Source: Amycolatopsis alba DSM 44262 (GTDB lineage Bacteria; Actinomycetota; Actinomycetes; Mycobacteriales; Pseudonocardiaceae). Taken from it: a stretch of 64,000 bases of DNA. The number at the start of each line of letters is the position of its first letter. Position 1 is the stretch's first letter. Below the pieces are notes generated by a model. The model was not told the origin of the DNA. It made no database searches and saw nothing but the letters and a program-made list of their open reading frames with translations. Of this stretch, positions 20,951-43,069 are shown in pieces. A program made the position numbers and the translations under genes. The DNA lies in contig NZ_KB913032.1 in the NCBI RefSeq assembly GCF_000384215.1, positions 7,897,605 to 7,961,604 of the forward strand, written 5' to 3'.

Positions 20951-20969
20951 GATCCCGCTGACCGGAATC
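20951..20969. promoter_or_regulatory. Steroid-cluster operator motif, site 1 (divergent promoters)
   Basis: GATCCCGCTGACCGGAATC, an imperfect palindrome (GAT-CCG-T-A-CGG-ATC). Its centre is 51 bp from the SDR start at 20909 and 75 bp from the CoA-ligase start at 21035, which has a Shine-Dalgarno. One of 11 related copies across the cluster. Confidence 0.65.
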
Positions 20970-21034
20970 GGCGCACAGGCCGACGGCGCAGAATGACACT
21001 GTTCGCCGTCGGCAACGTCGTCGAGGAGGAGCGG

Positions 21035-22660
21035 ATGCACAAGGAGCTCGACCCCCGCGCCGCGGTGGAAACCCTCACAGGCCCCGGAGGTCCCTTCGAG
21101 CTCGTGGAGGAGACGGTGCTGGGCAGGCCCCTGCCCGTCTTCGGCACCCGCGCTCGCGCACTGCACGAACTGCTCGCGGGCAGCCTCGCCCACGCCGGAC
21201 GGGACTACCTCGTCACGGCGGACCGCCGGATGACCTACGCCGAGCACGCGAGGCAGGTCGCCTCACTCGCCAAGGCCCTGCGGGAGCAGTACGGGGTGCG
21301 GGCCGGGGACCGGGTCGCCATCGCCGCCTCGAACAGTCCGGAATGGATCGTCACCTTCTGGGCAACGGTCGCGATCGGAGCGGTGTCGGTGGGCTTCAAC
21401 GCCTGGTGGTCCGCCCGCGAACTCGAATACGGCCTGGCGCACGCGACCCCCGTCCTGGTGGTCGCCGACGCCAAACGCGCGGCGCTGCTGCCGTCGGCGA
21501 CCCCGGTCCTCTCGATCGAGACCGACATCCCCCGGCTCGCCACGTCCCATCCGGACAGTCCCTTGCCCACCGCCGCGGTGGAGGAGGACGCCCCGGCCGT
21601 CATCCTGTACACCTCGGGCACCTCGGGCAGGCCCAAAGGCGCGACCCACTCCCACCGCAACCTGCTGGCCGTGGTGCAGTACCACCGGTTCAACGACGCG
21701 CTCATGGCCGCTCACGGCGACCCCGCGGACCCCTGCGACCGGGCGTATCTCCTGACGCTGCCGCTGTTCCACATCGCCAGCCTGCACAACCTGGCGGTCC
21801 CCCGGCTCGCCACCGGCAGCAAGGTGGTCCTGCACCAGGGCGCTTTCGACGTCGACAGGCTGCTGAGCCTGGTCGAGCGGGAACGCGTGACGCACTGGGG
21901 CGCTGTCCCGACCATGGCGCGGCGGCTCCTCGACCACGAGGACCTCACGTCCTACGACACCTCGTCGCTCACCAGCTTTTCGCTCGCGTCCGCGCCGTCG
22001 TCGCCCCAGTTCAAGGCGCGGCTGCGGGACAAGCTCCCGTTCGCCTCCGCGCTGGTGGACAGCTACGGCCTGACGGAGTCGTGCACGGCCATCTCGGCGG
22101 CGAGCCCGCTCGATCTGGAGGCGGAACCCGGCACGCTGGGCAGGCCGATCGTCGGGGTACGGCTGGAGATCCGCGACGCGCACGGCAAGCCCGTGCCGGA
22201 CGGCGTCGAGGGCGAGGTCTGCGTGCGCAGCATGTACACCATGCTCGGCTACTGGGGCGACGAAGAAGCGACCGCAGCCGCGATCCGGGAGGACCGCTGG
22301 CTGCACACCGGCGACATCGGCGTCTTCGAGCACGGCAGGCTGCGGCTGTCCGCGCGACGGTCGGATCTCATCATCCGGGGCGGCGAGAACGTCTATCCGG
22401 CCGAGATCGAGACCGTGCTCGCCGAACATCCGGGAGTCGCCGAGGTGCTGGTGACCGGGCTCCCGCATCCGGATCTGGGCCAGGAGGTCGCGGCCGTCGT
22501 GGTGACCCGCGACGAGGCGGCACCTTCGGAGGACGAACTGCGGGCGTTCGTCGCCGAACGGCTCGCGTACTTCAAGGTCCCCGCCCACTGGCGGATCACC
22601 CCGGACCCGTTGCCCCGCAACGCGACCGGGAAGGTGATGCGGGCCAAGGTCGAGTTCTGA
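21035..22660 (+). CDS. Acyl-CoA synthetase (FadD family)
   Basis: 541 residues from the ATG at 21035, chosen for the GAGGAGGAG site just upstream; an ATG at 20993 in the same frame is possible. AMP-binding signatures: [65 protein letters not shown], and catalytic Lys in [11 protein letters not shown]. It is divergent from the side-chain operon and shares its operator. In steroid clusters such ligases activate either the C24-type side chain or the later ring propionate (FadD3 role). The choice is not resolved here. Confidence 0.85.
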
Positions 22661-22667
22661 GCGGACC

Positions 22668-22722
22668 GGCCGTGAAGGCCTCCTTCCCTACTCTCAGGGT
22701 AGGGAAGGAGGCCTTCACGGCC
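22668..22722. repeat. Palindrome, GTGAAGGCCTCCTT family, between convergent genes
   Basis: 24-nt arms around a 7-nt loop (22692-22698). The outer arm sequence is shared with the palindrome at 3728-3780; the inner bases differ but still pair. It lies 8 bp after the FadD stop and 28 bp before the end of the thioesterase gene on the other strand, so it can serve as a two-way terminator. Confidence 0.85.
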
Positions 22723-22749
22723 GCTACCGCGGGTACGCGTCCAGCCCGC

Positions 22750-23370
22750 TCAGCGAGGTCGCGCGAGGTGCTTGTTCACGAAGATGCCTTCAGCCGAGAC
22801 ACAGACCTGCCCGCCCGCGCTGATGGTGCCGCTCGTGAAGATCTTCCGACCCTCGACCGAGTCCTGGCGCGCGGTCACGGTCAGCTCCTCGAACAGCGGG
22901 GTCGTCCGGTGATACCGCAGGGTGAGCGTCCCGGTCATACCCGATTCCCCCGCCCAGTGGTTGGCGACGCCGAGGGTGTGGTCGAGCAGCAAGGCCGAAA
23001 TCCCGCCGTGGACACAGCCCGGCGGCCCCTGATACGGCATCCCGAGCGTCACCTTGCCCTCGATTCCGCCGTCGGCGAGGCCGACCAGGTGCAGCGGCGG
23101 CGCGATGGCGTTCTCCGGCCCGGTCACCGGGTCGTGCCGGGTCACCCCTTCGCCCGCCCACATGTCGACCAGCCTGTCGGCCACCGCGGGGGCGTGCTCT
23201 TCGAGGTGATCGGCGACCGCGTTCAGCCGTCCGGCGATCTCGGTCATCTCGGCCGGGGTGCCGTCCCCCGCGTGCAGCAGGGCGGCGATCACCCGGCGGG
23301 CGGCGGCGACGGCCGCGTCGACACCGCCGTTTCCGGGCGAGGCGGTCAGTTCGGGCTGGGTGGCGGTCAC
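22750..23370 (-). CDS. PaaI-type hotdog thioesterase
   Basis: 206 residues. The C-terminal two thirds are a 4HBT hotdog with GCVHGGISALLLDHTLGVAN, the HGG motif and acid residue of PaaI-like acyl-CoA thioesterases. The N-terminal 75 residues are helical and unassigned. It overlaps the MaoC gene by 4 bp and is the last gene of the thiolase-led operon (27521 to 22750). It probably releases CoA from dead-end steroid or acyl-CoA intermediates. Confidence 0.82.
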   Translation of the reverse strand: MTATQPELTASPGNGGVDAAVAAARRVIAALLHAGDGTPAEMTEIAGRLNAVADHLEEHAPAVADRLVDMWAGEGVTRHDPVTGPENAIAPPLHLVGLADGGIEGKVTLGMPYQGPPGCVHGGISALLLDHTLGVANHWAGESGMTGTLTLRYHRTTPLFEELTVTARQDSVEGRKIFTSGTISAGGQVCVSAEGIFVNKHLARPR

Positions 23371-24224
23371 CAGGTCACCTCCGCGGTCGCGTGGTCGAGC
23401 ACCGAGACGTCGTCACGTTCGGGACAGGTCGCCGACAGCGACAGCCGGGAACCGTCACGCCACACCGCGATCCGCATCGTCTCCCCAGGGTGCAGTACCC
23501 CGGCGAAGCGGACCGCGAGCCCGCGCAACCGGGTGGAGTCGCCGTCGAGCAGCCTGTCGACCACTGTTCCCGCCAGGATCCCGTACGAGGCCAGCCCGTG
23601 CAGAATCGGCCTTTCCAAACCTGCCGCCTTGGCGAAGGCCGGGTCCGCGTGGATCGGGTTCAGATCCCCGTTGAGTCGGTAGAGCAGCGCCTGCCCCGGA
23701 TCGGTGGGCGTGTCGACGACCAGATCGGGCTCACGGGACGGCGGCCCGGAAGGCGCGGCGGGACCAGCCGGGCCGCCGAAGCCACCCTCGCCCCGCAACC
23801 AGATGCGCATCCGCGATGTCCACAAAGGACTCCCGTCCGGGGTGGCCGCGGCGGATTCGTACTCGACGACCGCCGCCTTGCCCTTGTCGAAGACGTCCGC
23901 GATCCGGCTGACGAGCCGCGCGGACCCGCTCGGCGGCAGCGGCGCGTGCACGGTCAGCGCCTGACCGGCGTGCAGGACACGGCGCAGGTCCACGTCGACC
24001 CCCGGCAGATCGAGCGACGCGGCCTGCCGCGTTCCGGCGGAAATCCCTTGGCCCGCCACCATCGCGAAGGTCGGCAGCACCTGGAGGTCGCGCTCGTAGG
24101 TGTAGGTCAGGTCGTCCGGGCGGACGCCGACCGAAAGGTGGTACAGCAGCACATCGCGCCGGGTCCAGGTGATCGTGCGGACGGACGGCTCGGCCGCCAG
24201 CGCCTTCTCGACGTCGATCGGCAT
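23367..24224 (-). CDS. MaoC-like double-hotdog enoyl-CoA hydratase (ChsH3/Hsd4B type)
   Basis: 285 residues from the ATG at 24224. Layout matches eukaryotic-type hydratase-2: N-terminal VLPTFAMVAGQG, DVFDKGKAAVVEYES, then the active hotdog YRLNGDLNPIHADPAFAKAAG with a perfect catalytic Asp/His motif, and ERPILHGLASYGILA. It should add water to the enoyl-CoA made by the FadE34-type enzyme encoded just upstream. It is related to, but better conserved than, the gene at 11724-12518. Confidence 0.87.
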   Translation of the reverse strand: MPIDVEKALAAEPSVRTITWTRRDVLLYHLSVGVRPDDLTYTYERDLQVLPTFAMVAGQGISAGTRQAASLDLPGVDVDLRRVLHAGQALTVHAPLPPSGSARLVSRIADVFDKGKAAVVEYESAAATPDGSPLWTSRMRIWLRGEGGFGGPAGPAAPSGPPSREPDLVVDTPTDPGQALLYRLNGDLNPIHADPAFAKAAGLERPILHGLASYGILAGTVVDRLLDGDSTRLRGLAVRFAGVLHPGETMRIAVWRDGSRLSLSATCPERDDVSVLDHATAEVTW

Positions 24225-24226
24225 GG

Positions 24227-26377: not shown

Positions 26378-26378
26378 C

Positions 26379-27539
<1,161 letters not shown>

Positions 27540-27562
27540 TCACCGGTTCGCGGCGTCGGAGC

Positions 27563-27598
27563 GATCCCACTCACCGGTCGACGCCCGCTGACCGGGAC
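27563..27598. promoter_or_regulatory. Steroid-cluster operator motif, sites 2 and 3 (paired)
   Basis: GATCCCACTCACCGGTC (27563-27579) and GCCCGCTGACCGGGAC (27583-27598), centres 18 bp apart, between the divergent thiolase and SDR genes. Site 2 is 51 bp from the thiolase start; site 3 is 75 bp from the SDR start, which has a Shine-Dalgarno. Confidence 0.65.
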
Positions 27599-27664
27599 GA
27601 GCCGGACGCTTCCGCCGCCTCGCGCCTTAGCGTGCGGCCACCCGTATCCGAAGGAGTGCACAGC

Positions 27665-28591: not shown

Positions 28592-29368
28592 TCAGAAGAC
28601 CGCCGGCCCGCGCACCGTCACCTCTGCCCCGCCGTCCACGTAGACGACCTGGCCGGTGACGTGCGTGTTGGCCGTCGAGATCAGGAAGCCCAACACCTCC
28701 GCGACGTCCTCGGGCGTCGCGTGGCCGTTCAGCGGCATCGGTACCGCCGTGGCCATCGCCTCGCGCATCCTCGCGTCCTCGAACAGCGGCGCGCTCATCG
28801 GTGTCAGCACGACTCCGGGTGCCACCACGTTCAGCGGGATCCCGGCGTCGGCGTAACCGGGCGCGATCGCCAGCCGCCGGGCCCACTGTGCCAAAGCCGA
28901 TTTCGTCGACGGGTAGATCCGGTGCCCGTTGCCGGTTTCGAGCAACGGAGTGCAGCGTGCGACCGCCGCCTCTTCGTCACCGGCCAGGAGCGCCGCGACG
29001 AGGTCCGCGTCGACCGGCTGGGTGCCGGAGATCGATCCGGTCACCGCGATCCGCCCGGCGGCCGACTTCGCGAGCAACGGCTGGAGAGCGGTCACCAGTT
29101 CGGTGGTCCCGAAGAAGTTGACCCGCACCATGGTTTCGCCGGGCGTGGCGACCCCGGCGCAGGCGACCAGTGCGTCGAGCGTTCCCCCGCTCTGCTCGGC
29201 GATCCGTTCGGCCGCTTCGGTGCGGCCAGCCGCGGTGGACAGATCGGCTTCGATTTCGGTGCCGCGCAGATCGACGCCGAGGACACGGTCGCCCTGGTCT
29301 CGCGACAGCCGGGCGGTGGCCTGGCCGATGCCCGAGCCGGCTCCGGTGACAACGATGGTGCGGGACAT
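28592..29368 (-). CDS. hsdA: 3-alpha-hydroxysteroid dehydrogenase-like SDR
   Basis: 258 residues with GGAGG site at the start 29368. It resembles the Comamonas 3-alpha-HSD/carbonyl reductase family: VVTGAGSGIGQATARL, GVDLRGTEIEADLSTAAGR, ACAGVATPGETMVRVNFFGT, Ser in VTGSISG, YPSTKSAL active site and the closing EVTVRGPAVF, with an inserted region 145-165 as in that family. This enzyme would oxidise a 3-alpha-hydroxyl, the configuration of bile acids, to the 3-ketone needed by KstD and KshAB. Assigned from remembered family similarity. Confidence 0.75.
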   Translation of the reverse strand: MSRTIVVTGAGSGIGQATARLSRDQGDRVLGVDLRGTEIEADLSTAAGRTEAAERIAEQSGGTLDALVACAGVATPGETMVRVNFFGTTELVTALQPLLAKSAAGRIAVTGSISGTQPVDADLVAALLAGDEEAAVARCTPLLETGNGHRIYPSTKSALAQWARRLAIAPGYADAGIPLNVVAPGVVLTPMSAPLFEDARMREAMATAVPMPLNGHATPEDVAEVLGFLISTANTHVTGQVVYVDGGAEVTVRGPAVF

Positions 29369-29431
29369 GAGACCTCCGGATTCAGAATGTGCGAGCGACG
29401 GTAGGGGCCGCCGGGAATCCGGAACCGCGAT

Positions 29432-29449
29432 GATCCCGCTCAGTGGGCC
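29432..29449. promoter_or_regulatory. Steroid-cluster operator motif, site 4
   Basis: GATCCCGCTCAGTGGGCC, centre 73 bp upstream of the 3-alpha-HSD-like gene (which has a Shine-Dalgarno) and overlapping the stop codon of the TetR gene behind it. Confidence 0.65.
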
Positions 29450-30051
29450 TTGTGGGGCAAGGGCGCCAGCAGCAGCTCGCACAGGCGGCGCACGTCGGCC
29501 TCCGCCTCCGCGAGCGACCAGTGGCCGTTGAGCGTGCCGATGAGCACGCCGTACCAGCCCTGCTCGACCAGCCGCATGATCCGCAGATGGTCGTCGGTCG
29601 GGTCGGTGATCCCGGCGGTGCGCAGCAACAACTCCTGGAACACGTCGTCGATCCGGGTCGAGCCGGTCACCGTGTCGGCGTGCGCCGCGTTGTTGGACTG
29701 CATCATCGCCAGCGCCAGGCGGGGCCGTTCGCACAGCCGCCGCCCGGCCTCGAGCAGGAGCGCGGCGACGGCCTCGGCGGGAGTCCCGTTCTCGGGAGGT
29801 TTGGCCGTCTCGGCCAGCCGCTCCACCTGGGCTCGCATCACGCCCAGGAACAGATGGGTCTTGGACGGGAAGTACCGGTAGAGCGTCGCGATCGCGACGC
29901 CGGACTCCTTGGCCACGTCGTGCATCTGCATGCGTTCGAGCCCGTGCTCGGCACCGAGCCGCCCGGCGGCCTGCAAGATCCGGCGGTAGCGCTCCTTCTG
30001 CTCCGCAGAGCTCGGCCGGGCGGGCGCCCTGACCTCCGCGATACGTGGCAC
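29440..30051 (-). CDS. KstR-like TetR-family regulator
   Basis: About 203 residues from a GTG at 30051 with AAGGGGG upstream. The helix-turn-helix reads ERYRRILQAAGRLGAEHGLE, then AKESGVAIATLYRYFPSKTH, close in style to KstR. The C-terminal ligand domain is helical and Leu-rich. It lies inside the steroid cluster and has its own copy of the cluster motif 70 bp upstream, so it is a candidate regulator of the cluster, probably responding to a steroid CoA ester. The motif is, however, unlike the known KstR operator. Confidence 0.82.
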   Translation of the reverse strand: MPRIAEVRAPARPSSAEQKERYRRILQAAGRLGAEHGLERMQMHDVAKESGVAIATLYRYFPSKTHLFLGVMRAQVERLAETAKPPENGTPAEAVAALLLEAGRRLCERPRLALAMMQSNNAAHADTVTGSTRIDDVFQELLLRTAGITDPTDDHLRIMRLVEQGWYGVLIGTLNGHWSLAEAEADVRRLCELLLAPLPHKAH

Positions 30052-30113: not shown

Positions 30114-30129
30114 TACCGGTGACCGGGAC
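30114..30129. promoter_or_regulatory. Steroid-cluster operator motif, site 5 (weaker)
   Basis: CTACCGGTGACCGGGAC, matching the right half of the consensus well and the left half poorly. Centre 70 bp upstream of the TetR start. Confidence 0.45.
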
Positions 30130-31726: not shown

Positions 31727-31743
31727 GTCCCACTCACCGGGCC
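31727..31743. promoter_or_regulatory. Steroid-cluster operator motif, site 6
   Basis: GTCCCACTCACCGGGCC, centre 82 bp upstream of the MFS start. Confidence 0.6.
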
Positions 31744-32929: not shown

Positions 32930-32945
32930 TTCCGATGAGCGGGAC
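32930..32945. promoter_or_regulatory. Steroid-cluster operator motif, site 7 (symmetrical divergent)
   Basis: TTCCGATGAGCGGGAC (reverse complement of the consensus). Its centre is 51 bp from the HsaA-like start at 32886 and 50 bp from the KshA start at 32987. Neither gene has a well-placed Shine-Dalgarno. Confidence 0.65.
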
Positions 32946-32986: not shown

Positions 32987-34117
32987 ATGACCGCACCGGA
33001 CGAAATCCGCCGCATCGAAGCCGACGCCACCCCGACCCGCTTCGCCCGCGGCTGGCATTGCCTGGGCCTCGCGAAGGACTTCACGGACGGTAAACCGCAT
33101 CAGGTACTCGCCTTCGGCCAGAAGCTCGTCGTCTTCGCGGGCACGGACGGCCGGGTCAACGTGCTCGACGGCTACTGCCGTCACATGGGCGGCGATCTGT
33201 CGATGGGCACGGTGAAAGGCGACGAGATCGCTTGCCCGTTCCACGACTGGCGCTGGGGCGGCGACGGCCGATGCAAGAAGATCCCCTACGCCCGGCGGGT
33301 GCCGCTGAGGGCCAGGACCGCGGCGTGGCCCACCCTCGTCCAGGACGGTCTTCTGTTCGTCTGGAACGATCCTGAGGGCAAACCGGCTCCCGAGGGGGTC
33401 ACGATCCCGCGTATCGAAGGCGCCGAGCGGGACGACTGGACCGACTGGCACTGGTACACCACCGTCATCGAGGGCGCCAACTGCCGCGAGATCGTGGACA
33501 ACCTGGTGGACATGGCCCACTTCTTCTACGTCCACTTCTCCTTTCCCACGCAGTTCAAGAACGTCTTCGACGGCCACGTCGGATGGCAGTTCCAGCAAGG
33601 GATCGGCCGGGAGGACGCGCGGCCTCAAGCGAGCAAGAGCGGTGTCACTCAGCTGCTGGGAAACACCAGCGTCGCGGCCTATCACGGTCCTTCGTTCATG
33701 ATCGACGATCTGACCTACCACTATTCCGACGGCGACGTGCGCAGCGTGCTGATCAACTGTCACTATCCGATCAGCGCCGACTCGTTCGTGCTGCAGTACG
33801 GGATCATCGTCGAGAAGGCCGCACATCTGGCCGACCCGGCCGCGATGGCCTCGAAAATGGGCGACTTCATCAAGATCGGGTTCGAACAGGACGTCGCCAT
33901 CTGGAAGAACAAGACCCGGATCGACAACCCGCTGCTGTGCGAAGAGGACGGTCCGGTCTACCAGCTGCGCCGGTGGTACGAGCAGTTCTACGTCGACGCC
34001 GCCGACGTGACGCCCGACATGACCGACCGGTTCGAGTTCGAGATCGACACGGCCCGCCCCAACGAGGCGTGGCGGGCCGAGGTCGCGGCCAACCTGGCCG
34101 CACGTGCCGCGCGATGA
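32987..34117 (+). CDS. kshA: 3-ketosteroid 9-alpha-hydroxylase, oxygenase component KshA
   Basis: 376 residues. Rieske centre C64-R-H66 and C83-P-F-H86 (YCRHMGGDL, CPFHDWRW). The mononuclear iron motif is around N172, D175, H178, H183 (NLVDMAHFFYVHF). C-terminal KshA domain (EDGPVYQLRRWYEQFYVD). With reductase KshB it hydroxylates C9 of 3-ketosteroids, which with KstD's delta-1 desaturation opens ring B. First gene of a three-gene operon; likely leaderless. Confidence 0.92.
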   Translation: MTAPDEIRRIEADATPTRFARGWHCLGLAKDFTDGKPHQVLAFGQKLVVFAGTDGRVNVLDGYCRHMGGDLSMGTVKGDEIACPFHDWRWGGDGRCKKIPYARRVPLRARTAAWPTLVQDGLLFVWNDPEGKPAPEGVTIPRIEGAERDDWTDWHWYTTVIEGANCREIVDNLVDMAHFFYVHFSFPTQFKNVFDGHVGWQFQQGIGREDARPQASKSGVTQLLGNTSVAAYHGPSFMIDDLTYHYSDGDVRSVLINCHYPISADSFVLQYGIIVEKAAHLADPAAMASKMGDFIKIGFEQDVAIWKNKTRIDNPLLCEEDGPVYQLRRWYEQFYVDAADVTPDMTDRFEFEIDTARPNEAWRAEVAANLAARAAR

Positions 34118-34407
34118 AGACGCGCTCCGACGAACGGCTCGCCGACACCCCGTTGCGGGAGATCGGCTGCGGAAACTGCGGCGCTCAGGTGCGAGTGCGC
34201 AAGTCGAGCTGGGAACAAACCAGCATCCAATGGACGACCTCGGCACAGGAGGCCTGCCGCGAACGACAGGCGGCGTCACCGGGCCCCGGCCCTAACGGCG
34301 CCTTCTTCCGCGGCTGCGAGGCCCTTCGCGCCGCGATCGCGGACGCCGCCGTGTGCGGGGAATTGCCCGTTCACGATTCTTCCGACTCCCCTGGAGGTCC
34401 GCTCTGA
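34114..34407 (+). CDS. Small Cys-containing protein of the kshA operon
   Basis: 97 residues, overlapping kshA (ATGA) and the following SDR (TGATG). It has a CGNC pair near residue 19-22 and further Cys at about 49, 69 and 82, with QVRVRKSSWEQTSIQWT between. Spacing suggests a small zinc ribbon or redox protein. I do not recognise the family. Tight coupling to KshA suggests a helper for the oxygenase, such as an electron carrier or assembly factor; that is inference. Confidence 0.7.
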   Translation: MKTRSDERLADTPLREIGCGNCGAQVRVRKSSWEQTSIQWTTSAQEACRERQAASPGPGPNGAFFRGCEALRAAIADAAVCGELPVHDSSDSPGGPL

Positions 34408-35192
34408 TGCTCGACAAATACGGACCGTGGGCGGTCATCACCGGCGGCTCGGAAGGAGTGGGCGCCGAGTTCGCCTTCCAACTCGCCGAAGCCGGCGTCA
34501 ACCTGATGCTGGTCGCCAGGAAACCCGGTCCGCTCGAAGAAACCGCGGTCAAGGCGCGGGCCCTCGGCGTCGAGGTACGCACACTCGCACTGGACCTGCT
34601 GGCGTCCGGGGCCGCCGCGGAGATCATCGCTGCGGTGTCCGATGTGGACGTCGGCTTGCTCGTCCACAACGCCGGCGCGAACAGCCACGGACATGAGTTC
34701 CTCGACGGCGACCTGGCCGGATTTCAGGGCGTCATCGACCTCAACATCACGGTGCCGCTGGCGCTGGCCCACCACTTCGGCGCGCGGATGAAGGAACGAC
34801 GGCGCGGCGGCATCCTTCTGGTCGGCTCGATGGCAGGCTACCTGGGCGCGACCCGGCAGAGCGTGTACGGCGGGGTGAAGGCGTTCGGCCGGATCTTCGC
34901 CGAAGGGCTGTGGCTGGAACTGCGCGACCACGGCGTCGACGTTCTCGAACTCGTCCTGGGCGTGACCCGCACGCCGTCGATGGAGCGAGCCGGACTGAAC
35001 TTCGACCTCCCCGGCCTGCAGGTCGCCGAGCCCGCCGAGGTGGCTCGCGAAGGGCTTCAGCACCTGGCCGACGGTCCGGTGTGGATCGCCGGGGGTAACG
35101 CCGGCGCCGTGCGGCATCGCAGTGGCACGGACCGCGCCGGGCTGGCCTTGGGCGCGCACGAGGCGATGATGCGGCTGCTACCGAAGGCTTGA
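34407..35192 (+). CDS. SDR-family oxidoreductase, last gene of the kshA operon
   Basis: 261 residues. Rossmann TGGSEGVGAEFAFQLAEAG, HNAGANSHG in place of NNAG, Ser in LVGSMAGYL, YGGVKAFG active site, and an extended C-terminus. The family resembles DltE/short-chain dehydrogenases acting on hydroxysteroids or acyl-CoA esters. Probable role: oxidation or reduction of a steroid hydroxyl. Substrate unknown. Confidence 0.82.
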   Translation: MLDKYGPWAVITGGSEGVGAEFAFQLAEAGVNLMLVARKPGPLEETAVKARALGVEVRTLALDLLASGAAAEIIAAVSDVDVGLLVHNAGANSHGHEFLDGDLAGFQGVIDLNITVPLALAHHFGARMKERRRGGILLVGSMAGYLGATRQSVYGGVKAFGRIFAEGLWLELRDHGVDVLELVLGVTRTPSMERAGLNFDLPGLQVAEPAEVAREGLQHLADGPVWIAGGNAGAVRHRSGTDRAGLALGAHEAMMRLLPKA

Positions 35193-35238
35193 GTCTCGTG
35201 AGTGGTAAAGCTGGTTCTTGCGGTCTGGCGGGGAGGTC

Positions 35239-35295: not shown

Positions 35296-35355
35296 GATCA
35301 GCAGGGCGCGTGCTTGGTGACCGTCGGCAGGGCTGGTCAGCCCGGACACAGGCCG

Positions 35356-35414
35356 CGTGTCGCGAAAGCCACTTTCGCGACGTCTGATGTCCCGAAAGTG
35401 GCTTTCGCGACACG
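35356..35414. repeat. Nested palindrome, GCGAAAGCCACTTTCGC family, copy 2
   Basis: 26-nt arms with a 7-nt spacer and one mismatch (35392). Same nested design as copy 1, but TTGCG/CGCAA is replaced by TCGCG/CGCGA on both sides, so pairing is kept. Confidence 0.85.
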
Positions 35415-35453
35415 ATCACCGGGTAGCGCCCAGGGCACAGGGCAGGCGTCTAA

Positions 35454-35471
35454 GGCGTGACTCGCGTGATC
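35454..35471 (-). repeat. GATCACGCGAG repeat, inverted single copy
   Basis: On the minus strand this reads GATCACGCGAGTCACGCC, identical to the second unit of the repeat at 55350-55367. Confidence 0.7.
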
Positions 35472-35765
35472 CGTCCTTGATTACGCACGACCGCCCATCC
35501 CACCCGAACACGACACCTCTGCCCTCGCCTCAACAGAACGCGCTCTACCACTCACGACTCCACTGTGAAGCCGGCCGCCTCACGTGATTGAACGGACGAC
35601 ACGCGAGTCGTCCCACCAGACACACGTGTCGTCCATCCCGTCACGCGTGTCGTCCCGCTGAACACACGACACCGCCACCCTCGCACCGCGTTCCTTTGAA
35701 CGCTGTGATCGTGAGCTTCAGTGGCCAGGTGAGCGTCGGCGCCAAAGGCCCGGCGCCCGACCCGG

Positions 35766-36692
35766 TCACGAAGGCGAAGCGAACGCGGCCAACGGTTCGG
35801 ACCCCGACCAGTCATGTCCCCAGTACGAATCGGCCGTGATTTCCTCAGCCGTGTAATGGGTCTCGTCCACGAGCATGCCTTCGGTGCCGTACTCCAGATC
35901 CCAGCCACCGGGGGCCCGCACATAGAAAGACACCATCTTGTCGTTCGTGTGCCTGCCCAGCGTCGAGGACACCGAGAAGCCGCGTTTGTTCACCTCGTCC
36001 AGCGCCCGCCCGACCGCGTCGAGGGTGTCGACCTCCACCATCAGGTGCACCAGGCCCGGCGGTTCGCCGTGCGGCGCCGGGCAGACGGCCAGGCTGTGGT
36101 GGCGCCGGTTCACGCCGAGGAACCGCACGCGGCGCGGTCGCTGCCCGTTGGGTTTCTTGTCCCCGATGCGGACAGCGCCGCGGGGCAGGAAGCCGAGCAC
36201 TTCGGTGTAGAAAGTGACCGTCTCGTCCATCGCCGTGGTCGGCAGCACGACATGTCCCATGCCCTGCTCCCCCGTCACGAAGGTCTGCCCCCAGCCGGTG
36301 TGCACCACGTCGTGGTCGAGCACCGGGCCGAAGAAGACCTCGACGGGCGTGCCTGCCGGGTCGTCGAACAGGATCGCCGACTCGACGCGGCGTTCGTCGC
36401 ACTGTGCCTGGGAAAGCTCCTTCACCGCGACACCGGCGGCGGCGACGGCTTCGGCGACGCGGGCGAGCGCGAACTGGTCACGGACTTCCCAGCCGACGGC
36501 CAGCACCCGGTCGCTGTCACCGGGAAGCACGATCAGGCGGGCTTCGCGTTCGTCCATGCGCAGGTAGAGCCCGTCCTCGACCGGGCCGGTGGTCTCCCCG
36601 AAGCCGAGGGCGCCGACGGTGAGTTCCCGCCAGCGTGCGACGTCGCGGGCCTGCACCCGGAGATAGCCGAGTCCGCGGATGTCGTTCGTCAT
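35766..36692 (-). CDS. hsaC: Extradiol dioxygenase HsaC
   Basis: 308 residues from the ATG at 36692 (AGGAGGAAA site). Type I extradiol dioxygenase with two VOC repeats. The iron ligands are His in GMGHVVLPT, His in GLVHLMVEVD and Glu in GGWDLEYGTEG; the active-site Tyr region is VDETHYTAEEIT. HsaC cleaves the catechol 3,4-DHSA made by HsaA/HsaB in ring A degradation. It follows the HsaA gene by 11 bp, so the two form one operon under operator site 8. Confidence 0.9.
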   Translation of the reverse strand: MTNDIRGLGYLRVQARDVARWRELTVGALGFGETTGPVEDGLYLRMDEREARLIVLPGDSDRVLAVGWEVRDQFALARVAEAVAAAGVAVKELSQAQCDERRVESAILFDDPAGTPVEVFFGPVLDHDVVHTGWGQTFVTGEQGMGHVVLPTTAMDETVTFYTEVLGFLPRGAVRIGDKKPNGQRPRRVRFLGVNRRHHSLAVCPAPHGEPPGLVHLMVEVDTLDAVGRALDEVNKRGFSVSSTLGRHTNDKMVSFYVRAPGGWDLEYGTEGMLVDETHYTAEEITADSYWGHDWSGSEPLAAFASPS

Positions 36693-36703
36693 CGAGTTTC
36701 CTC

Positions 36704-37888
36704 CTAGATCATCGAGAGCATCGGACCGGGCGGCGGGGTGATGCCGATGCCGGTCAGCGCGGCCACGTGGAACACCGCGCCTGGCACGTGGATCGCGTGC
36801 GCGAGGCCCATGTGACCGTCGCGCCAGAAACGCTGGATCGGGTTGTCCATCCGCAGGCCGTTGCCGCCCGAACGCGCGACGATCTCGTCCATCGCCTGCA
36901 CCGCGCGCCACGCGGCGGCGACCTGGGTGCGCCGGGAGGCGGCGCGTTCCTCGAACGTCACTTCCCCGGCAGCGGCGGCTTTGTCGTAGAACCGGCTCGC
37001 GTTGTCCAGCAGCGCCGTCCGCGAGGCCTTGATCTCCTCGGCCGCCGCGCTGATCGCGTACAGCACATACGGATCGTCCTTCACCTGCGTGCCGGTGATC
37101 TGGACACGGGTCTTCTGATAGGCCAGGTGGGCGGCGAGCGCGCCCTCCGCGATGCCGATCACCGCGCTGGTGATGCCGAGCGGGAACATCGTGGTGAACG
37201 GGACGTGGTAGGTGGGATTGACCAGCCCGGCGTTCCGGGGCGCCGAGCCGTCGAGCATCGAAGAGAACGGCACCACCCGGTAGTCCGGCACGAACGCGTT
37301 CTCGACGACGATGTCCTTCGACCCGGTTCCCCGCAGCCCGACGACGTCCCAGGAGTCCTCGACGATCGTGTAGTCCGCTCGCGGCAGGATCACGTGGTAA
37401 CTCCGCCGGGGAGTCAGCGGGGCGCCGTCCGCGTCGCCGAGGAAGCCGCCGAGGAAGATCCAGTCACAGTGATCGGTCCCGGAGGAGAACTGCCACCGCC
37501 CGGAGAAGAGGTAGCCACCGTCGACCGGGCGGAGAACACCCATCGGCGCGTACGGCGAGGCGATCCAGGTCTCCTGGTCCTCGCCCCAGATCTCTTGCTG
37601 TACGCGGGAATCGCACATCGCCATCTCCCACGGGTGGACCCCGACGATGCCCGCCACCCAGCCGGTGGCACCGTCGAGGGACGCGATCCGCATGACCGTC
37701 TCGGCGAACTCCCGCGGATGTGCCTCGGCGCCGCCGTACTTCGACGGCTGCAACATCCGGATCACCCCGGTGTCGCGCAGGATCGCGGCCGCGGCGTCGT
37801 CCAGCCTGCCGAGCTTTTCGTTGGACTCGCCCAGCGAAGCGATCTCCTCGGCGCGCGCCTCGATGGCGGCCAGTGCCGGGTTCGTCAT
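36704..37888 (-). CDS. hsaA: 3-HSA 4-hydroxylase HsaA (oxygenase), paralogue 2
   Basis: 394 residues, the length of characterised HsaA. Acyl-CoA dehydrogenase-like flavin monooxygenase: IRMLQPSKYGGAEAHPREFA, GATGWVAGIVGVHPWEMAM, WQFSSGTDHCDWIFLGGF, DVVGLRGTGSKDIVVENAFV, RSGGNGLRMDNPIQRFWRDG. Uses reduced flavin from HsaB. AGGAGG site at the start; operator site 8 is centred 70 bp upstream. Directly followed by hsaC. Confidence 0.9.
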   Translation of the reverse strand: MTNPALAAIEARAEEIASLGESNEKLGRLDDAAAAILRDTGVIRMLQPSKYGGAEAHPREFAETVMRIASLDGATGWVAGIVGVHPWEMAMCDSRVQQEIWGEDQETWIASPYAPMGVLRPVDGGYLFSGRWQFSSGTDHCDWIFLGGFLGDADGAPLTPRRSYHVILPRADYTIVEDSWDVVGLRGTGSKDIVVENAFVPDYRVVPFSSMLDGSAPRNAGLVNPTYHVPFTTMFPLGITSAVIGIAEGALAAHLAYQKTRVQITGTQVKDDPYVLYAISAAAEEIKASRTALLDNASRFYDKAAAAGEVTFEERAASRRTQVAAAWRAVQAMDEIVARSGGNGLRMDNPIQRFWRDGHMGLAHAIHVPGAVFHVAALTGIGITPPPGPMLSMI

Positions 37889-37949
37889 GACTTGCCTCCT
37901 GACTGCATGGCGTCACGGTGTCACCGGGTCCGGGATCGGGTCCGGCCCT

Positions 37950-37967
37950 CTCCCGTTCACCGGGATC
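37950..37967. promoter_or_regulatory. Steroid-cluster operator motif, site 8
   Basis: CTCCCGTTCACCGGGATC, centre 70 bp upstream of hsaA and only a few bases after the stop of the reductase gene behind it, which shows that hsaA-hsaC has its own promoter. Confidence 0.65.
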
Positions 37968-37971
37968 ACCG

Positions 37972-38964
37972 TCAGCCGTCGAAAGTGACCTGGACGGTGG
38001 GTGAGGTCGGGCGTGCCTGGCAGGACAGCACCATCCCGTCGGCGAGGTCGGCATCGTCGAGCACTTCGTTGTGCGCGAAGGAAACGGTCCCTCCCCGGAC
38101 GAAACACGCGCAGGCGCCGCAGGAACCCTCCCGGCAGGAGTACGGCACGTCGAGCCCGCCCGCGATGGCCGCTTCGAGCAGGGTCGCCCCGGAAGGCCAC
38201 TCGACCGTCGTGGTCACGCCGTCGAGCAGGACCTCGAGTTCGGTCCTGTCGCCGGTTCCTGCTTCGAAGACGGCGAACGGGTCACGAGTGAGCGACGTGA
38301 ACCGCTCCAGGTTGATCCGCTCGTCCGGGAACCCCGCTGACCGAAGGGTTTCGACGGCGAGGTCCATCAGCGCGGCGGGACCGCAGACGAACGCGTCGCG
38401 TGCGGTGTACCTCTCGACGAGGGCAAGAAGACCGCCGCGCGTCGGGAGTCCCTGGACAGATTCGAGCCAGTGCACCACGGTGAAGCGGTCCGGGAACTCG
38501 GCGGCGAGCGCGACGAGCTCGTCGCGGAAGATGACCGACTGTTCGTCCCGGTTCGCGTACACCAGCGTCACGTTCCCGGTGCCGGCGTGCAAAACGGTCT
38601 TGAGGATCGACAGCACCGGCGTGATCCCGCTGCCGCCGGCGAGCAGCAGGAGATCGCGGTCCAGCCCCGCCGGGACGAACGTGCCCGCCGGCCGCAGCAC
38701 CTCGAACTCCGCACCCTCGACGGCGTTGTCGCAGATCCAGTTCGACGCGTGGCCGCCACGGGTCCGTTTGACGGTCACCTTGAGCTCGTCGTCCCGCACC
38801 GGCGACGAGCTGAGCGAGTAGCACCGAGCCGCCCCGCCCGGCAGCTTGATGGTGAGGAACTGCCCCGGCCGGTAGTCCATCGCCTCGCAATCGAGGGGCC
38901 GGAGAACGAGCGAACACGCGTCGGCGGTCTCGCGCACCACCTCCAGCACCCGAACCCGCGGCAT
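37972..38964 (-). CDS. kshB: 3-ketosteroid 9-alpha-hydroxylase reductase KshB
   Basis: 330 residues: FAD domain (RCYSLSSSP, a RxYS motif), NAD domain (LLAGGSGITPVLSILK, FVCGPAALMD) and a C-terminal plant-type 2Fe-2S ferredoxin (YSCREGSCGACACFV with a fourth Cys in LSCQARP). This is the KshB layout. It passes electrons to KshA. It is the last gene of the operon HsaD-KstD-KshB. Confidence 0.9.
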   Translation of the reverse strand: MPRVRVLEVVRETADACSLVLRPLDCEAMDYRPGQFLTIKLPGGAARCYSLSSSPVRDDELKVTVKRTRGGHASNWICDNAVEGAEFEVLRPAGTFVPAGLDRDLLLLAGGSGITPVLSILKTVLHAGTGNVTLVYANRDEQSVIFRDELVALAAEFPDRFTVVHWLESVQGLPTRGGLLALVERYTARDAFVCGPAALMDLAVETLRSAGFPDERINLERFTSLTRDPFAVFEAGTGDRTELEVLLDGVTTTVEWPSGATLLEAAIAGGLDVPYSCREGSCGACACFVRGGTVSFAHNEVLDDADLADGMVLSCQARPTSPTVQVTFDG

Positions 38965-38967
38965 GGC

Positions 38968-40614
38968 TCAGCCCGCCGCGGCGTGCCGCGCCGCCACGTA
39001 CCCGAAGACGATCGACGGCCCGATCGTCGCCCCCGGACCGGCGTACTCGTTCGCCATCACCGAGGCGGTCGCGTTGCCGGTCGCGTAGAGCCCGGCGATC
39101 GCGGTCCCGTCTTCGCGGAGCACGCGGCTGTGCTCGTCGCAGACCAGCCCGCCCTTGGTGCCCAGGTCACCGAGCTGGATGCGCACGGCGTAGAACGGCG
39201 CCTTGTCGATCACGTCGAGGTTGGGGTTCTTCAACGTCGGATCCCCGTAGTACCGGTCGTGCGCGCTTTCGCCGCGGTGGAAGTCTTCGTCGGCACCCGC
39301 GCGGGCGAAACCGTTGAAGCGGTCGACAGTGGCGACGAGACGGTCCTCGGCGATCCCGATCTCGCGGGCCAGCGCCGCCACCGTCTCCGCCCGGTGCACC
39401 AGGCCCGACTTGTAGAACGCTTCGGGGAACGGCATTCCGGGCAGGATCTGCGCGAACGGGTACCGTGCGCGCGCCTTGGCGTCCATGACGCACCAGGTCT
39501 CGAAGTGCTTGCCCTCGATCTGGTCGTGCACGAAGTTGACGTACGGCGAGGCTTCGTTCGTGAAGCGCCTGCCGTCCTGGGACACGATGATCTGGCCGGG
39601 GATCGCGCGTTCGGACACCAGCGGGATGGTCGCGCCACTCGGATGTTCGACCGACGGCATCCACCAGGCGTCGTCCATGAAACCGAGGGACGCGCCGAGA
39701 GCCGCGCCTGCCTTGATGCCGTCCCCGGTGTTCTCCTTGGCGCCGAGGCTGTGATCGGCGGAGGCGCCGTCGGGCAGGTACTGCTCGCGCATCACCGGGT
39801 TGTGATCGAACCCGCCGCAGGCGAGCAGGACACCACGCCTGGCACGGATGTACTCCGTGCGCCCTTCGCGAGTGATCGCGATGCCGTCGACACGGCCTTC
39901 CTCGACGACGAGCTCGGTCATCGGGGCCTTGAGCCAAAGCGGGACTCCGGCGTCCTTGAGCGCCATCCGCAGCCGGGCGACCAAGGCCCGCCCGCCGGTG
40001 GCCATATGCCTGCGCCGCACCAGGTTGGAGGTCACCCGCCAGGCCGCGACCAGCGACGCGCGACGCCCCTGCCAGGTCCGCTTGACCATCGCCAGGTCGT
40101 GATAGTCCTTGGCGGTGATCCAGAGCCCGAGCGGGCCCTTCATGCTGTTCGGACGTTGAAAAGCCTCGTCGGCCTTGAGTTTGCGGGTGTCGAACGGCTT
40201 CGGTTCGACAGACCGTCCGAGCGGCCTGCCGCCTTCGTACTCGGGGTGGTAGTCGGCATAACCTTTGGTCCAGACGAGCTTCCACCATTTGCTCCGGCCG
40301 AGCAGTTCCATCGCCGCGGGGCCGTGGTCGACATAGGCGTCGAGCCGCGCCGCGGGCACCTTCCCTTCGGTGAGCACGTCGAGATACCGGCGGATCGACT
40401 GCCGTGAGTCGTCGTGCCCACGCTCGCGCAGGGTCGGATTGTTCGGGATCCAGATGCCGCCCCCGGAGATGCCGGTGCTGCCGCCGTACCGCGAGGCCTT
40501 TTCCACGACGACGGAGCTGAGCCCGGCGTCGTGCGCGGTCAGGGCGGCGGTCATCCCGCCGCCTCCGGATCCGACGATGACGAAGTCGTAGGTGTGCTCC
40601 CAAACCCGGCTCAT
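38968..40614 (-). CDS. kstD: 3-ketosteroid delta-1-dehydrogenase (KstD-like flavoprotein)
   Basis: 548 residues. FAD motif IVGSGGGGMTAALTA, GGSTGISGGGIWIP, and C-terminal APFYAVRIQLGDLGTKGG and NEYAGPGATIGPSIVFGY, which include the Tyr and Gly used by KstD to desaturate C1-C2. It is closer to KstD than to fumarate reductases. Together with KshAB it breaks ring B. It lies between the HsaD and KshB genes with 3-5 bp spacing. Confidence 0.87.
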   Translation of the reverse strand: MSRVWEHTYDFVIVGSGGGGMTAALTAHDAGLSSVVVEKASRYGGSTGISGGGIWIPNNPTLRERGHDDSRQSIRRYLDVLTEGKVPAARLDAYVDHGPAAMELLGRSKWWKLVWTKGYADYHPEYEGGRPLGRSVEPKPFDTRKLKADEAFQRPNSMKGPLGLWITAKDYHDLAMVKRTWQGRRASLVAAWRVTSNLVRRRHMATGGRALVARLRMALKDAGVPLWLKAPMTELVVEEGRVDGIAITREGRTEYIRARRGVLLACGGFDHNPVMREQYLPDGASADHSLGAKENTGDGIKAGAALGASLGFMDDAWWMPSVEHPSGATIPLVSERAIPGQIIVSQDGRRFTNEASPYVNFVHDQIEGKHFETWCVMDAKARARYPFAQILPGMPFPEAFYKSGLVHRAETVAALAREIGIAEDRLVATVDRFNGFARAGADEDFHRGESAHDRYYGDPTLKNPNLDVIDKAPFYAVRIQLGDLGTKGGLVCDEHSRVLREDGTAIAGLYATGNATASVMANEYAGPGATIGPSIVFGYVAARHAAAG

Positions 40615-40618
40615 CCGG

Positions 40619-41479
40619 TCAGTCCTTCCTGGTCAGAAACGCGAGAACGGTGCTCTCCCAGGCGGACTTCTGCTCGATCATCGCCCAGTGACCGCAGTCG
40701 GGGAAGACATGGAGTTCGGCGCCGGGGATGGTGCGCATCGGGACCAGCGCCATGTCGAGCGGGCTCACCCGGTCGTCCCGACCCCACGTGATCAGCGTCC
40801 TGGCCCGGATCTTGTGCAGCATCGCCCAGTACGGCGGCTGATCGGACCGGTCGGCGGCCGCCGCCATCGCCTCCAGCACTCCCCGCCCGTACATCTTCTT
40901 CGCGGCGGCGAGCGTGCCCGGCTCGGTGGCGTGTGCCCAGCGCTCCTCGACGAGTTCGTCGGTGATCAGCGACTGGTCGTACACCATGGACCGCAGCCAC
41001 TGCACCAGCCGTTCCCGCGTCGGGTTCTCGGTGAACTCGACGAGCAGGTTGATCCCTTCGGCGGGGCCGGGGCTGAACAGCGCGCGTCCCATCCCGCCGA
41101 TGGTCACCAGCCGGCGCACCCGGTCCGGCTCCGCGATCGCCGTCCGGGTCGCCACGATGCCGCCCATCGAGTTGCCGATGACGTCGACCTCGGACAGGTC
41201 GAGGCCGTCCAGGAAACGCCCGACAGCGCCGGACGCGGCGGACATCGGCGGCTCCCCGGTCGGGTCACTGACCCCGAATCCGGGGAATTCCAGTACCAGG
41301 CAACGAAAGCGCGCCGCCAGGGCCGGCAGGTTGCCGCGGAAGTTGCGCCAGCCGGTCACCCCTGGGCCGGACCCGTGCAGCAACAGCAGCGGCGGACCGT
41401 CCCCGGCTTCGTGGTATCTCAGCACCCCCTGTTCGGTCGAAAGCTCCCGCAGCGTGCTCTCGTAGCTCGGCTCACTCAC
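40619..41479 (-). CDS. hsaD: HsaD-like meta-cleavage product hydrolase
   Basis: 286 residues from the GTG at 41479. Alpha/beta hydrolase with HGSGPGVTGWRNF oxyanion region, nucleophile in IGNSMGG, Asp in TWGRDDRVSP and His in FPDCGHWAMIEQ, the C-C hydrolase pattern. HsaD cleaves the ring-opened 4,9-DSHA. First gene of its operon; no Shine-Dalgarno. Its start is 49 bp from operator site 9, and a -10-like TACGGT lies 6 bases before the GTG, fitting a leaderless mRNA. Confidence 0.87.
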   Translation of the reverse strand: MSEPSYESTLRELSTEQGVLRYHEAGDGPPLLLLHGSGPGVTGWRNFRGNLPALAARFRCLVLEFPGFGVSDPTGEPPMSAASGAVGRFLDGLDLSEVDVIGNSMGGIVATRTAIAEPDRVRRLVTIGGMGRALFSPGPAEGINLLVEFTENPTRERLVQWLRSMVYDQSLITDELVEERWAHATEPGTLAAAKKMYGRGVLEAMAAAADRSDQPPYWAMLHKIRARTLITWGRDDRVSPLDMALVPMRTIPGAELHVFPDCGHWAMIEQKSAWESTVLAFLTRKD

Positions 41480-41518
41480 CGGGTCACCGTAGGAATCCTT
41501 GCGCGGCAACGGTGCCGC

Positions 41519-41554
41519 GATCCCGATGACCGGGAGCGAGCCACTGAGCGGGAC
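41519..41554. promoter_or_regulatory. Steroid-cluster operator motif, sites 9 and 10 (paired)
   Basis: GATCCCGATGACCGGGAGC (41519-41537) and CCACTGAGCGGGAC (41541-41554, reverse orientation), centres 18 bp apart. Site 9 is 49 bp from the HsaD start and site 10 is 50 bp from the HsaB start. A weaker copy (CTCACTCACCGGGTC, 41471-41485) covers the HsaD start codon. Confidence 0.68.
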
Positions 41555-41595
41555 GACGGCGGCACGGACGCGGCGAGCCGCCCTACCTTCGGCGC

Positions 41596-42141
41596 ATGAG
41601 CCGCACAATCCGCACGAGTGAGCCCACCCCGGCCGAGATGCGCCGCGCGATGGGTGGTTTCGCGACCGGTGTCACGGTCGTGACCGGCCTGCACGAAGCC
41701 GAGCCTGTCGGGTTCGCGTGCCAGTCCTTCGCGTCGGTTTCGCTCGAACCGCCGCTGGTCCTGTTCTGCGCCGACCATCGCGGCCGGGCCTGGCCGAAGA
41801 TCCGCGACTCGGGCCGGTTCACCGTGCACGTGCTCGCCGAGGACCAGAGCGAACTGTGCGCTCGCTTCGGTTCCCGGAACGGGCGGAAGTACGACGGTCT
41901 GGAGTGGACGGTCTCGCAGTGGGACACGCCGGCCCTGTACGGAGCGCTGCTCCGGGTGCACGCGGAGGTCGACGCCGTGCACGAGGCGGGTGACCACGAC
42001 GTCGTGATCGGCCGGGTGCTGGAACTGGAGACGCTCGACGGCGACCGGCCGATGCTCTTCTTCCGCGGCGGCTTCGGGGTGCACAGCGCACACGAACGGG
42101 TCGCCCCGGCCCGGTGGGGCTGGGGCGACCATTGGGGCTGA
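41596..42141 (+). CDS. hsaB: Flavin reductase HsaB
   Basis: 181 residues of the flavin-reductase-like split barrel: MRRAMGGFATGVTVVTG, GFACQSFASVSLEPPLVLFC, RFTVHVLAEDQSELCARFG and a closing LFFRGGFG. It supplies reduced flavin to HsaA-type monooxygenases. Single gene, divergent from HsaD. No Shine-Dalgarno; TACCTT lies 6 bases before the ATG. Confidence 0.88.
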   Translation: MSRTIRTSEPTPAEMRRAMGGFATGVTVVTGLHEAEPVGFACQSFASVSLEPPLVLFCADHRGRAWPKIRDSGRFTVHVLAEDQSELCARFGSRNGRKYDGLEWTVSQWDTPALYGALLRVHAEVDAVHEAGDHDVVIGRVLELETLDGDRPMLFFRGGFGVHSAHERVAPARWGWGDHWG

Positions 42142-42180
42142 GCCGCCTCAGCACGCGGTCCGGACGGCACCGCCACGACG

Positions 42181-42966
42181 TCAGGACCGGCCGGGGAACA
42201 GCAGCGCCGAGACCCTGTGCGTGGCGTGCGCGACCAGTGGGGCGAGCCGCTCCAACGGCGCCTTCAGATCGCCCACCAGGGAGATCGCGCCGACCGGCCC
42301 TTCCGGACCGTGCACGGCGGCGGCGACACAGGCGATGTCGGGAAAGCATTCGCCCCGCTCGTAGGCGACCCCGCCCCGGTCCCGGATCCGGTTCAGTTCC
42401 TGGTGCAGCGCACCGAGATCCGCGATGCTGCACGGGGTCCGGGTGGCGGGCCGGGCGCCGACGAGATCGTCCACGTCCTCCGCGGGAAGCGCGGCGAGCA
42501 TCGCCTTGCCCAGCGCCGTCGAGGACGCCGGGGCGTGGCCGCCGACCCGTGACGGCACGGTCGTCGCCCGCCGTCCGCCGAGCTTGTCCAGGTACTGCAC
42601 CCGGCCTTCGTCCAGGACGGCGAGGTGCACGGTCATCCCGGTCCGCACCATCAGCCCGTGCACCAGCGGCGCGGCCGAGGCCCGCAGCTCACCGTGCGCG
42701 TACTCGTCCCCGCCGAGGTGCAGTGCCCGGCGGCCGAGCGAGTAGCCGAGGCTGGAATGGTCGAGCCAGTTCAGGTTGACCAGCTGGTCGAGGATCCGGT
42801 GCGCGGTCGACCTCGGCAGCCGCGTCGCACGGGCGACGTCCTCCAGCGTGAGCCGCGCGAAGCGGCCGGGGAAGGCGTCGAGGATGAGCGTCATCCGCTC
42901 GACCATCGACGGCGGGAGCGGGTCGCGGTGGTCCGATCCGGGCGCTTCGACGGTGGTGACGCTCAT
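42181..42966 (-). CDS. IclR-family regulator of the steroid cluster (candidate)
   Basis: 261 residues with AGGAGG site. Winged helix-turn-helix at about 20-80 (LTLEDVARATRLPRSTAHRI) and a C-terminal IclR ligand domain (VHLAVLDEGRVQYLDKLGG, SSTALGKAMLAALP, ACVAAAVHGPEGPVGAISLV). IclR proteins can repress themselves and activate catabolic operons. It lies within the cluster next to operator site 11 and is the best-placed activator candidate. Its own leader contains a distinct repeat, AACTGAAATGAATTC. Confidence 0.87.
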   Translation of the reverse strand: MSVTTVEAPGSDHRDPLPPSMVERMTLILDAFPGRFARLTLEDVARATRLPRSTAHRILDQLVNLNWLDHSSLGYSLGRRALHLGGDEYAHGELRASAAPLVHGLMVRTGMTVHLAVLDEGRVQYLDKLGGRRATTVPSRVGGHAPASSTALGKAMLAALPAEDVDDLVGARPATRTPCSIADLGALHQELNRIRDRGGVAYERGECFPDIACVAAAVHGPEGPVGAISLVGDLKAPLERLAPLVAHATHRVSALLFPGRS

Positions 42967-42980
42967 CGCGAACCTCCTAA

Positions 42981-43069
42981 AACTGAAATGAATTCTAGAT
43001 GGAGATTAGCAGTCGCCCGACCTCGAACGGAAGACCGGAACTGAAATTCATTCTTCCGCTGAGCGAGAC
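42981..43069. promoter_or_regulatory. IclR/LLM intergenic control region
   Basis: It contains two direct repeats, AACTGAAATGAATTCTA (42981-42997) and GAACTGAAATTCATTC (43038-43053), and, abutting the second, cluster motif site 11, TTCCGCTGAGCGAGAC (43054-43069), centred 51 bp from the oxidoreductase start at 43112. The first repeat overlaps the IclR leader, fitting autoregulation. Confidence 0.55.

Follow-up and report, generated by a model that had tools for sequence, protein, structure and literature searches.

What controls the genes for bile-acid catabolism in Amycolatopsis alba DSM 44262, whose promoters share a palindrome unlike the operator of the steroid regulator KstR? These genes lie in a 64,000-nucleotide stretch of contig NZ_KB913032.1 (hereafter the window, to which coordinates refer unless a locus is named), where profile searches identify a cluster for bile-acid (cholate-type) steroid catabolism. 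A preliminary description, made from the sequence alone, had noted the palindrome, which we call here the steroid motif or TCCC site, and had offered two regulators encoded in the cluster as its possible owners:

29440..30051, minus strand: TetR-family regulator, KstR-like (PF17925 and PF00440), called KstR3 here and proposed as owner of the motif
42181..42966, minus strand: IclR-family regulator (PF09339 and PF01614)

The core of the motif is the 15-bp palindrome TCCCRNTSANYGGGA, with a central C/G. We find that it is very likely the operator of KstR3, whose binding is predicted from where the motif stands. Of the two regulators, the TetR protein appears to fit and the IclR protein, which has a different box at its own promoter, does not.

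A palindromic motif marks the promoters of the cluster

We searched the window with the previously described pattern at up to three mismatches, using dinucleotide shuffles (n = 100) as a control. There were 62 matches, compared with 30.6 ± 6.0 in the shuffles, none of which (0/100) reached 62. All 11 sites listed in the preliminary description were among the matches, some of them shifted by 1 to 3 bases. They are as follows, from matrix scans where no other evidence is given:

20953..20967: predicted KstR3-type operator between the divergent side-chain operon led by a short-chain dehydrogenase/reductase (SDR) gene (20121-20909, minus strand) and CasG (20993, plus strand); 18.3-19.6 bits, 16.2 with a second matrix (see below)
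27565..27579: predicted operator, first of a tandem pair, between the thiolase (minus strand) and hsdA-like SDR (plus strand) genes
27583..27597: predicted operator, second of the tandem pair, between the same two genes
29434..29448: predicted operator 5' of the SDR gene 28592-29368 (minus strand), overlapping the end of the TetR gene
30114..30128: predicted autoregulatory operator of the TetR (KstR3) gene; 20.5 bits, the top hit of the second matrix
31728..31742: predicted operator 5' of the gene for a major facilitator superfamily (MFS) transporter
32930..32944: predicted operator between HsaA1 (minus strand) and kshA (plus strand)
37951..37965: predicted operator 5' of HsaA2-HsaC; exact TCCCRNTSANYGGGA match
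41521..41535: predicted operator between the HsaD-KstD-KshB genes (minus strand) and hsaB (plus strand); exact TCCCRNTSANYGGGA match
41539..41553: weaker second predicted operator copy, 18 bp from the 41521 site; 13.2 bits, below 11 with the second matrix
43054..43068: predicted operator between IclR (minus strand) and the gene for a luciferase-like monooxygenase (LLM)-class protein (plus strand), 51 bp before the latter

The centres of these sites are 30-95 bp, mostly 50-70 bp, upstream of the start codons as chosen here; the SDR gene at 20121 was taken with its start at 20930, which gives 30 bp, and an alternative candidate ATG at 20909 gives 51 bp. At two promoters the site is duplicated in tandem with a spacing of 18 bp (27565/27583 and 41521/41539). 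When a matrix built from the window sites was run over positions 15000-45300, it returned 12 hits scoring at least 13, 10 of which are centred in intergenic DNA. Such DNA represents 6.9% of this interval in our own gene list (binomial p ~1e-10, a circular value since the matrix was built from the same sites).

While all 11 copies that had been described as intergenic are present, only 10 are intergenic by their centres, because that of the 29434 site falls in the last TetR codons. This site serves the SDR gene 28592-29368, and the site of the TetR gene itself is the one at 30114. Besides the SDR gene at 44421, the one exception noted earlier, the SDR gene 34353-35192, which may be read together with kshA, has no site of its own either.

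The motif is conserved at orthologous promoters

We scanned a comparison set of 80 named loci, assembled from relatives of HsaA2, and found 271 sites of at least 15 bits, with two or more sites in 70/80 loci. In contrast, 20 column-permuted matrices gave 0-26 sites and at most three loci with two or more. These were stricter permuted controls than in the promoter count below, where control maxima are inflated because some controls resemble the true matrix.

Promoters of orthologues were then scored for a site of at least 15 bits within 300 bp. Nearly all promoters of HsaB (58/59), TetR (15/17), CasG (5/5), and MFS (3/3) have one, as do 7/12 for HsaD, 19/40 for kshA, 20/80 for HsaA2, 15/44 for LLM, and 4/11 for hsdA. 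The operon-internal genes KshB and KstD, which served as negative controls, have a site in 1/57 cases each. These counts omit hits below the bit cut-offs, alignments starting after residue 25, and genes with less than 200 bp of upstream sequence, and for HsaA1, HsaD, TetR, and MFS the queries begin too early, which leaves few rows and windows misplaced by up to ~200 bp. Loss of the motif in closely related clusters, a prospect raised at the outset, is not what we see, since it is kept across the 80 loci and at the starts of KstR3 genes. The motif is real and functional-looking.

One genome from the same taxonomic order (G156) has a second steroid cluster (locus L197, 8626-17484), with relatives of kshA, HsaA, HsaC, HsaB, and KstD, with six strong TCCC sites.

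The motif is found at the start of KstR3 genes

KstR3 was searched for in 49 cluster genomes, drawn from 50 of the 80 loci with L057 left out. Relatives are found in 47; identity is 45-62% in 46 genomes and 37% in the remaining one, Nocardia vermiculata. In 46/46 genomes, representing 17 named genera, a site scoring 14.5 bits or more immediately precedes the start of the best KstR3 copy, and this site is kept where KstR3 is tens of kilobases away from IclR or on another contig (for example, G019, G022, and G023). The 46 foreign sites, located with the window matrix and solely before TetR genes, were used to build the second matrix. When applied to the 64 kb, it gave ten hits of at least 11 bits, all on the earlier list and 9/10 with an intergenic centre, in a cross-test that is only partly independent because the window matrix had served to pick the foreign sites. 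The motif found across the cluster and the autoregulatory site of KstR3 look like the same element.

KstR3 orthologues are near relatives of kshA, HsaA, or hsdA in 12/13 mapped loci, with none of these in the L107 stretch. The A. alba genome encodes one KstR3 (505 bits), and its next-best TetR protein is KstR itself, with 29% identity. Sampling was also extended to the class, with 394 evenly drawn genomes, 51 of which have a TetR match. Fifteen of these were examined, five had the same coordinates as earlier genomes, one was G000, and 30 genomes of a single genus (33-40%) were left out. Among 16 KstR3 copies in the 15 genomes, 10 have sites of at least 13 bits, 2 have weak sites, and 4 have none.

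Several observations weigh against KstR3 as owner of the motif. Of 56 KstR3-like matches, 52 were scanned, the others being a single additional copy in each of G014, G016, G021, and G049. Among the six scanned copies other than the best ones of the 46 genomes, the second copies in G048 and G049 (55-56%) have weak sites of 13.6 and 11.9 bits, and the four paralogous or distant copies L162-L165 (37-48%) have no upstream site. L179, L180, L182, and L185 have none either. L162, L163, and L185 are without a site despite a similar recognition helix, and the helix sequence alone does not predict sites. No site was found at 12 HsaA1 promoters (0/12), for which the query begins too early and the scan window is misplaced. 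Conversely, the motif occurs where no close KstR3 was found. A single 18-bit site is present in each of two Hoyosella loci that lack KstR3. Genomes G410 (L199-L205) and G396 contain seven exact matches each, the former having no close KstR3 and the latter no TetR match at E <= 1e-30. In A. alba, the best hsaE-like gene (L209; 281 bits, cut-off 408.8) has only a 10.8-bit site ~80 bp upstream.

The L185 KstR3-like gene (49%) has an IclR-box-like word (see below), CTAGAGTGAATTCTAGTTTTT, upstream (~7150-7330), as if it had switched regulator.

Is another factor the owner of the motif?

Linkage alone does not separate KstR3 from a third factor, because motif and KstR3 mostly share one cluster. A regulator encoded elsewhere, either another TetR protein or a global factor, might bind the motif, KstR3 being merely one of its targets. 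We regard this as very unlikely, since the site stands before the best KstR3 copy in every one of the 46 genomes, remote copies included. The exact matches in G410 and G396 speak for such a factor, as do those scattered over the A. alba genome. There, contrary to the expectation that hits would be confined to steroid genes, 5/7 exact TCCCRNTSANYGGGA matches are outside the cluster, which again counts against KstR3. Three of these are inside open reading frames (ORFs), and the other two precede an uncharacterised ORF and a gene for a peptidase S37. The cluster is enriched, with 2/7 exact matches vs. 0.016 expected. For TNCCRNTSANYGGNA, a pattern relaxed after the sites were seen, at least 5 of 55 genome matches (50 of which were listed) are inside these 22 kb vs. 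0.12 expected (p = 2e-7).

Eleven outside sites were read in ten stretches (L166-L175). Seven are inside ORFs and four are before genes with no evident steroid role, flanking genes having been partly profile-searched, which also speaks against a third factor. These four genes are the peptidase S37 gene, an alpha-L-fucosidase-like gene, whose site shares bases with the end of an AraC-type gene, a ROK gene, and the uncharacterised ORF. Profile searches of ten flanking ORFs showed no obvious steroid gene, one neighbour being an enoyl-CoA hydratase. The matches at the alpha-L-fucosidase-like gene (L171, 2017-2031) and the peptidase S37 gene (L166, 2025-2039) are possibly due to chance. We also considered the number of exact matches per genome as a discriminator and rejected it as too noisy, with an average of 5.6 in the 14 sampled genomes whose KstR3 shares at least 46% identity and 7 each in G410 and G396, which have no close KstR3.

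The IclR regulator has a separate box

The other regulator of the cluster, IclR, could own the motif and control the whole cluster through it. It is as widespread as KstR3, and regulator co-occurrence was dropped as a discriminator since each is found in 47/49 cluster genomes; we therefore based the assignment on where the motif stands in promoters and on the existence of a separate box for IclR. The steroid motif is found at 20/62 IclR promoters. In contrast, a different, AT-rich box with consensus AAGAATTCATTTCAGTTTT is upstream of 61/62 IclR orthologues (L031-L110) with 0-5 mismatches out of 19, the only one without it being L108, a 53% homologue. Among upstream stretches of other genes, only 3/482 are within six mismatches of this box, and across the 62 loci scanned the corresponding matrix gave 72 hits near IclR vs. 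3 elsewhere. In the window, the only hits above 11 bits are these two:

42979..42997, minus strand: IclR box TAGAATTCATTTCAGTTTT, directly 5' of the IclR gene; 41.1 bits
43037..43055, minus strand: second IclR box AAGAATGAATTTCAGTTCC, towards the LLM gene, with a two-base overlap with the 43054 operator; 29.1 bits

One case favourable to IclR, and unfavourable to KstR3, is G135, a 96%-complete assembly that has an IclR (52%) and, in its cluster stretch, one motif copy, a perfect site ~90 bp before an HsaA-HsaC pair, while its best TetR match is only 31% identical. The start of this IclR gene, however, carries a TAGAACGCGTTCTA palindrome instead of the motif. Conversely, five genomes (G205, G355, G280, G052, and G208) with KstR3 at 40-48% identity and no IclR hit at E <= 1e-60 keep sites of 15.4-18.6 bits, although weaker IclR homologues (38-54%) are nearby, which tempers this argument for KstR3. 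Considering the evidence on both sides, it is very unlikely that IclR owns the motif. IclR would rather regulate itself and the divergent LLM gene via its own box, as the arrangement of the boxes suggests. This box resembles group 2 IclR operators in having inverted half-sites like TGRAACAN1-2TGTTYCA (PMC8222616). In the openly licensed literature searched, it was not found in work on the present subject, one string of the box occurring in papers on other subjects.

Paralogous TetR-IclR gene pairs are found in L162, L163, and L165 and, from hit lists, in G014 (contig C20, ~1.049 Mb), G016 (C33), and G021 (C170). In the L162, L163, and L165 pairs, there is no TCCC site before the TetR gene, and IclR-box-like words are found at the starts of the IclR genes.

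Finally, although high-GC DNA yields such words (163 genome matches at up to one mismatch, listed up to ~3 Mb, compared to 24 for a reversed control pattern), the idea that the motif arose from chance or from the codon usage of high-GC genes is counted as refuted by the intergenic enrichment, the conservation at orthologous but not operon-internal promoters, and the excess of sites over permuted controls.

The predicted operator differs from those of KstR and KstR2

The KstR operator is TnnAACnnGTTnnA, with an AACnnGTT core, and the KstR2 operator is AnCAAGnnCTTGnT. TnnAACnnGTTnnA has one exact full match in the window, and this match, at 47929, is not part of the cluster; by exact search, the only AACnnGTT core in the cluster is inside the HsaA2 gene, with none in cluster promoters. 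No exact match to the KstR2 operator, core or full, was found in the 64-kb window. The earlier remark that the pattern is unlike the KstR operator is thus borne out by exact searches of the cluster, and the proposal of a distinct regulon over a steroid or bile-acid cluster gains support both from the 899-bit CasG match and from promoters devoid of KstR and KstR2 operators.

KstR3 and KstR belong to the same family, share a PF17925 C-terminal domain, and have steroid catabolic genes as targets, predicted ones for KstR3. However, KstR3 scores 94.4 bits against a KstR equivalog cut-off of 280, its predicted operator is of another type, and the true KstR is encoded elsewhere in the A. alba genome. 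Its nearest solved structure by sequence is that of a TetR-family protein (PDB 3bjb, 187.8 bits), followed by KstR (~72 bits). The alignment to 3bjb begins at a conserved PRIAEVR start, and the N-terminus agrees.

The motif corresponds to the predicted Lcin1 motif of Nocardioides simplex

The motif had been presented as unknown, which it is not. In 2020, phylogenetic footprinting of cluster E in Nocardioides simplex VKM Ac-2033D led to the prediction of Lcin1, TCCCGGT[C/G]ACCGGGA (PMC7593942). Cluster E contains orthologues of the cholate genes of R. jostii RHA1, and most of its genes are reported to be up with lithocholate. KR76_18060 and KR76_18605 were proposed for the two motifs of the paper, with a call for further research (PMC7593942). 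Lcin1 is the same 15-bp palindrome with a central C/G, in the same kind of bile-acid cluster. It is also placed before an hsaEGF-like operon. The difference is that Lcin1 was described in one strain, with its regulator left open, whereas here the motif is tied to TetR promoters in 46 other genomes and set apart from the IclR box. The motif itself was known as a prediction, to which the present analysis adds TetR as its proposed owner and the separate box of IclR.

In Pimelobacter simplex 3E (L047), the TetR gene directly adjoins kshA. In the N. simplex cluster, kshA is KR76_18045, so that KstR3 of that strain could be the adjacent gene KR76_18040, reported not to be induced, instead of KR76_18060, the one favoured there (PMC7593942). 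We found no second biological use of the name Lcin1 in openly licensed literature, where the exact spellings of our motif were not found either, which does not imply absence from print. The name kstR3 is already in the literature; in one case it designates a regulator of a different operon in Mycolicibacterium.

A proposed third KstR-type regulon

By analogy with KstR, a KstR3 dimer would bind the 15-bp palindrome ~50 bp before start codons and would repress the genes for side-chain degradation, A/B-ring degradation, and transport of bile acids, together with its own gene. KstR and KstR2 have catabolites as ligands (PMC8399759), and KstR3 may similarly be released by a catabolite of steroids or bile acids, possibly a coenzyme A (CoA) ester. 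IclR would form a separate small circuit, with its AT-rich box at its own promoter and that of the divergent LLM gene. The shared IclR/LLM promoter also carries one predicted KstR3 operator, so that two signals would meet in one intergenic region. On balance, we lean towards a still broader picture, in which many actinobacterial genera run bile-acid catabolism through a third regulon of the KstR type, which covers side-chain, ring, and transport genes, has a conserved operator of its own, and includes a nested, self-contained IclR circuit (AAGAATTCATTTCAGTTTT). If this were true, the bile-acid branch of actinobacterial steroid catabolism would gain a named repressor, with its operator, in addition to KstR and KstR2, the unassigned Lcin1 motif would get its regulator, and the motif would serve as a marker of the regulon in 17 or more genera and as a candidate for a promoter part that responds to bile acids.

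Gene content of the cluster

The following genes of the cluster were identified by profile searches:

20993..22660, plus strand: CasG, steroid-24-oyl-CoA synthetase (899 bits, equivalog cut-off 750)
32987..34117, plus strand: kshA, 3-ketosteroid 9alpha-hydroxylase oxygenase (PF19298, KshA_C)
36704..37888, minus strand: HsaA-like oxygenase, HsaA2 (380 bits to NF045629, cut-off 450)
37972..41479, minus strand: KshB-, KstD-, and HsaD-like genes, probably a single operon judging from their spacing
41596..42141, plus strand: hsaB-like flavin reductase (190 bits to NF045630, cut-off 230)
43112..43954, plus strand: LLM-class flavin oxidoreductase (PF00296)

One HsaA is above the equivalog cut-off and the second is below it, as are the relatives of HsaB and HsaD. 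Further members of the cluster are a KstD relative, a KshB-like reductase, an HsaC-like dioxygenase, an old-yellow-enzyme gene, and a thiolase, alongside CoA ligases, acyl-CoA dehydrogenases, and the MFS transporter.

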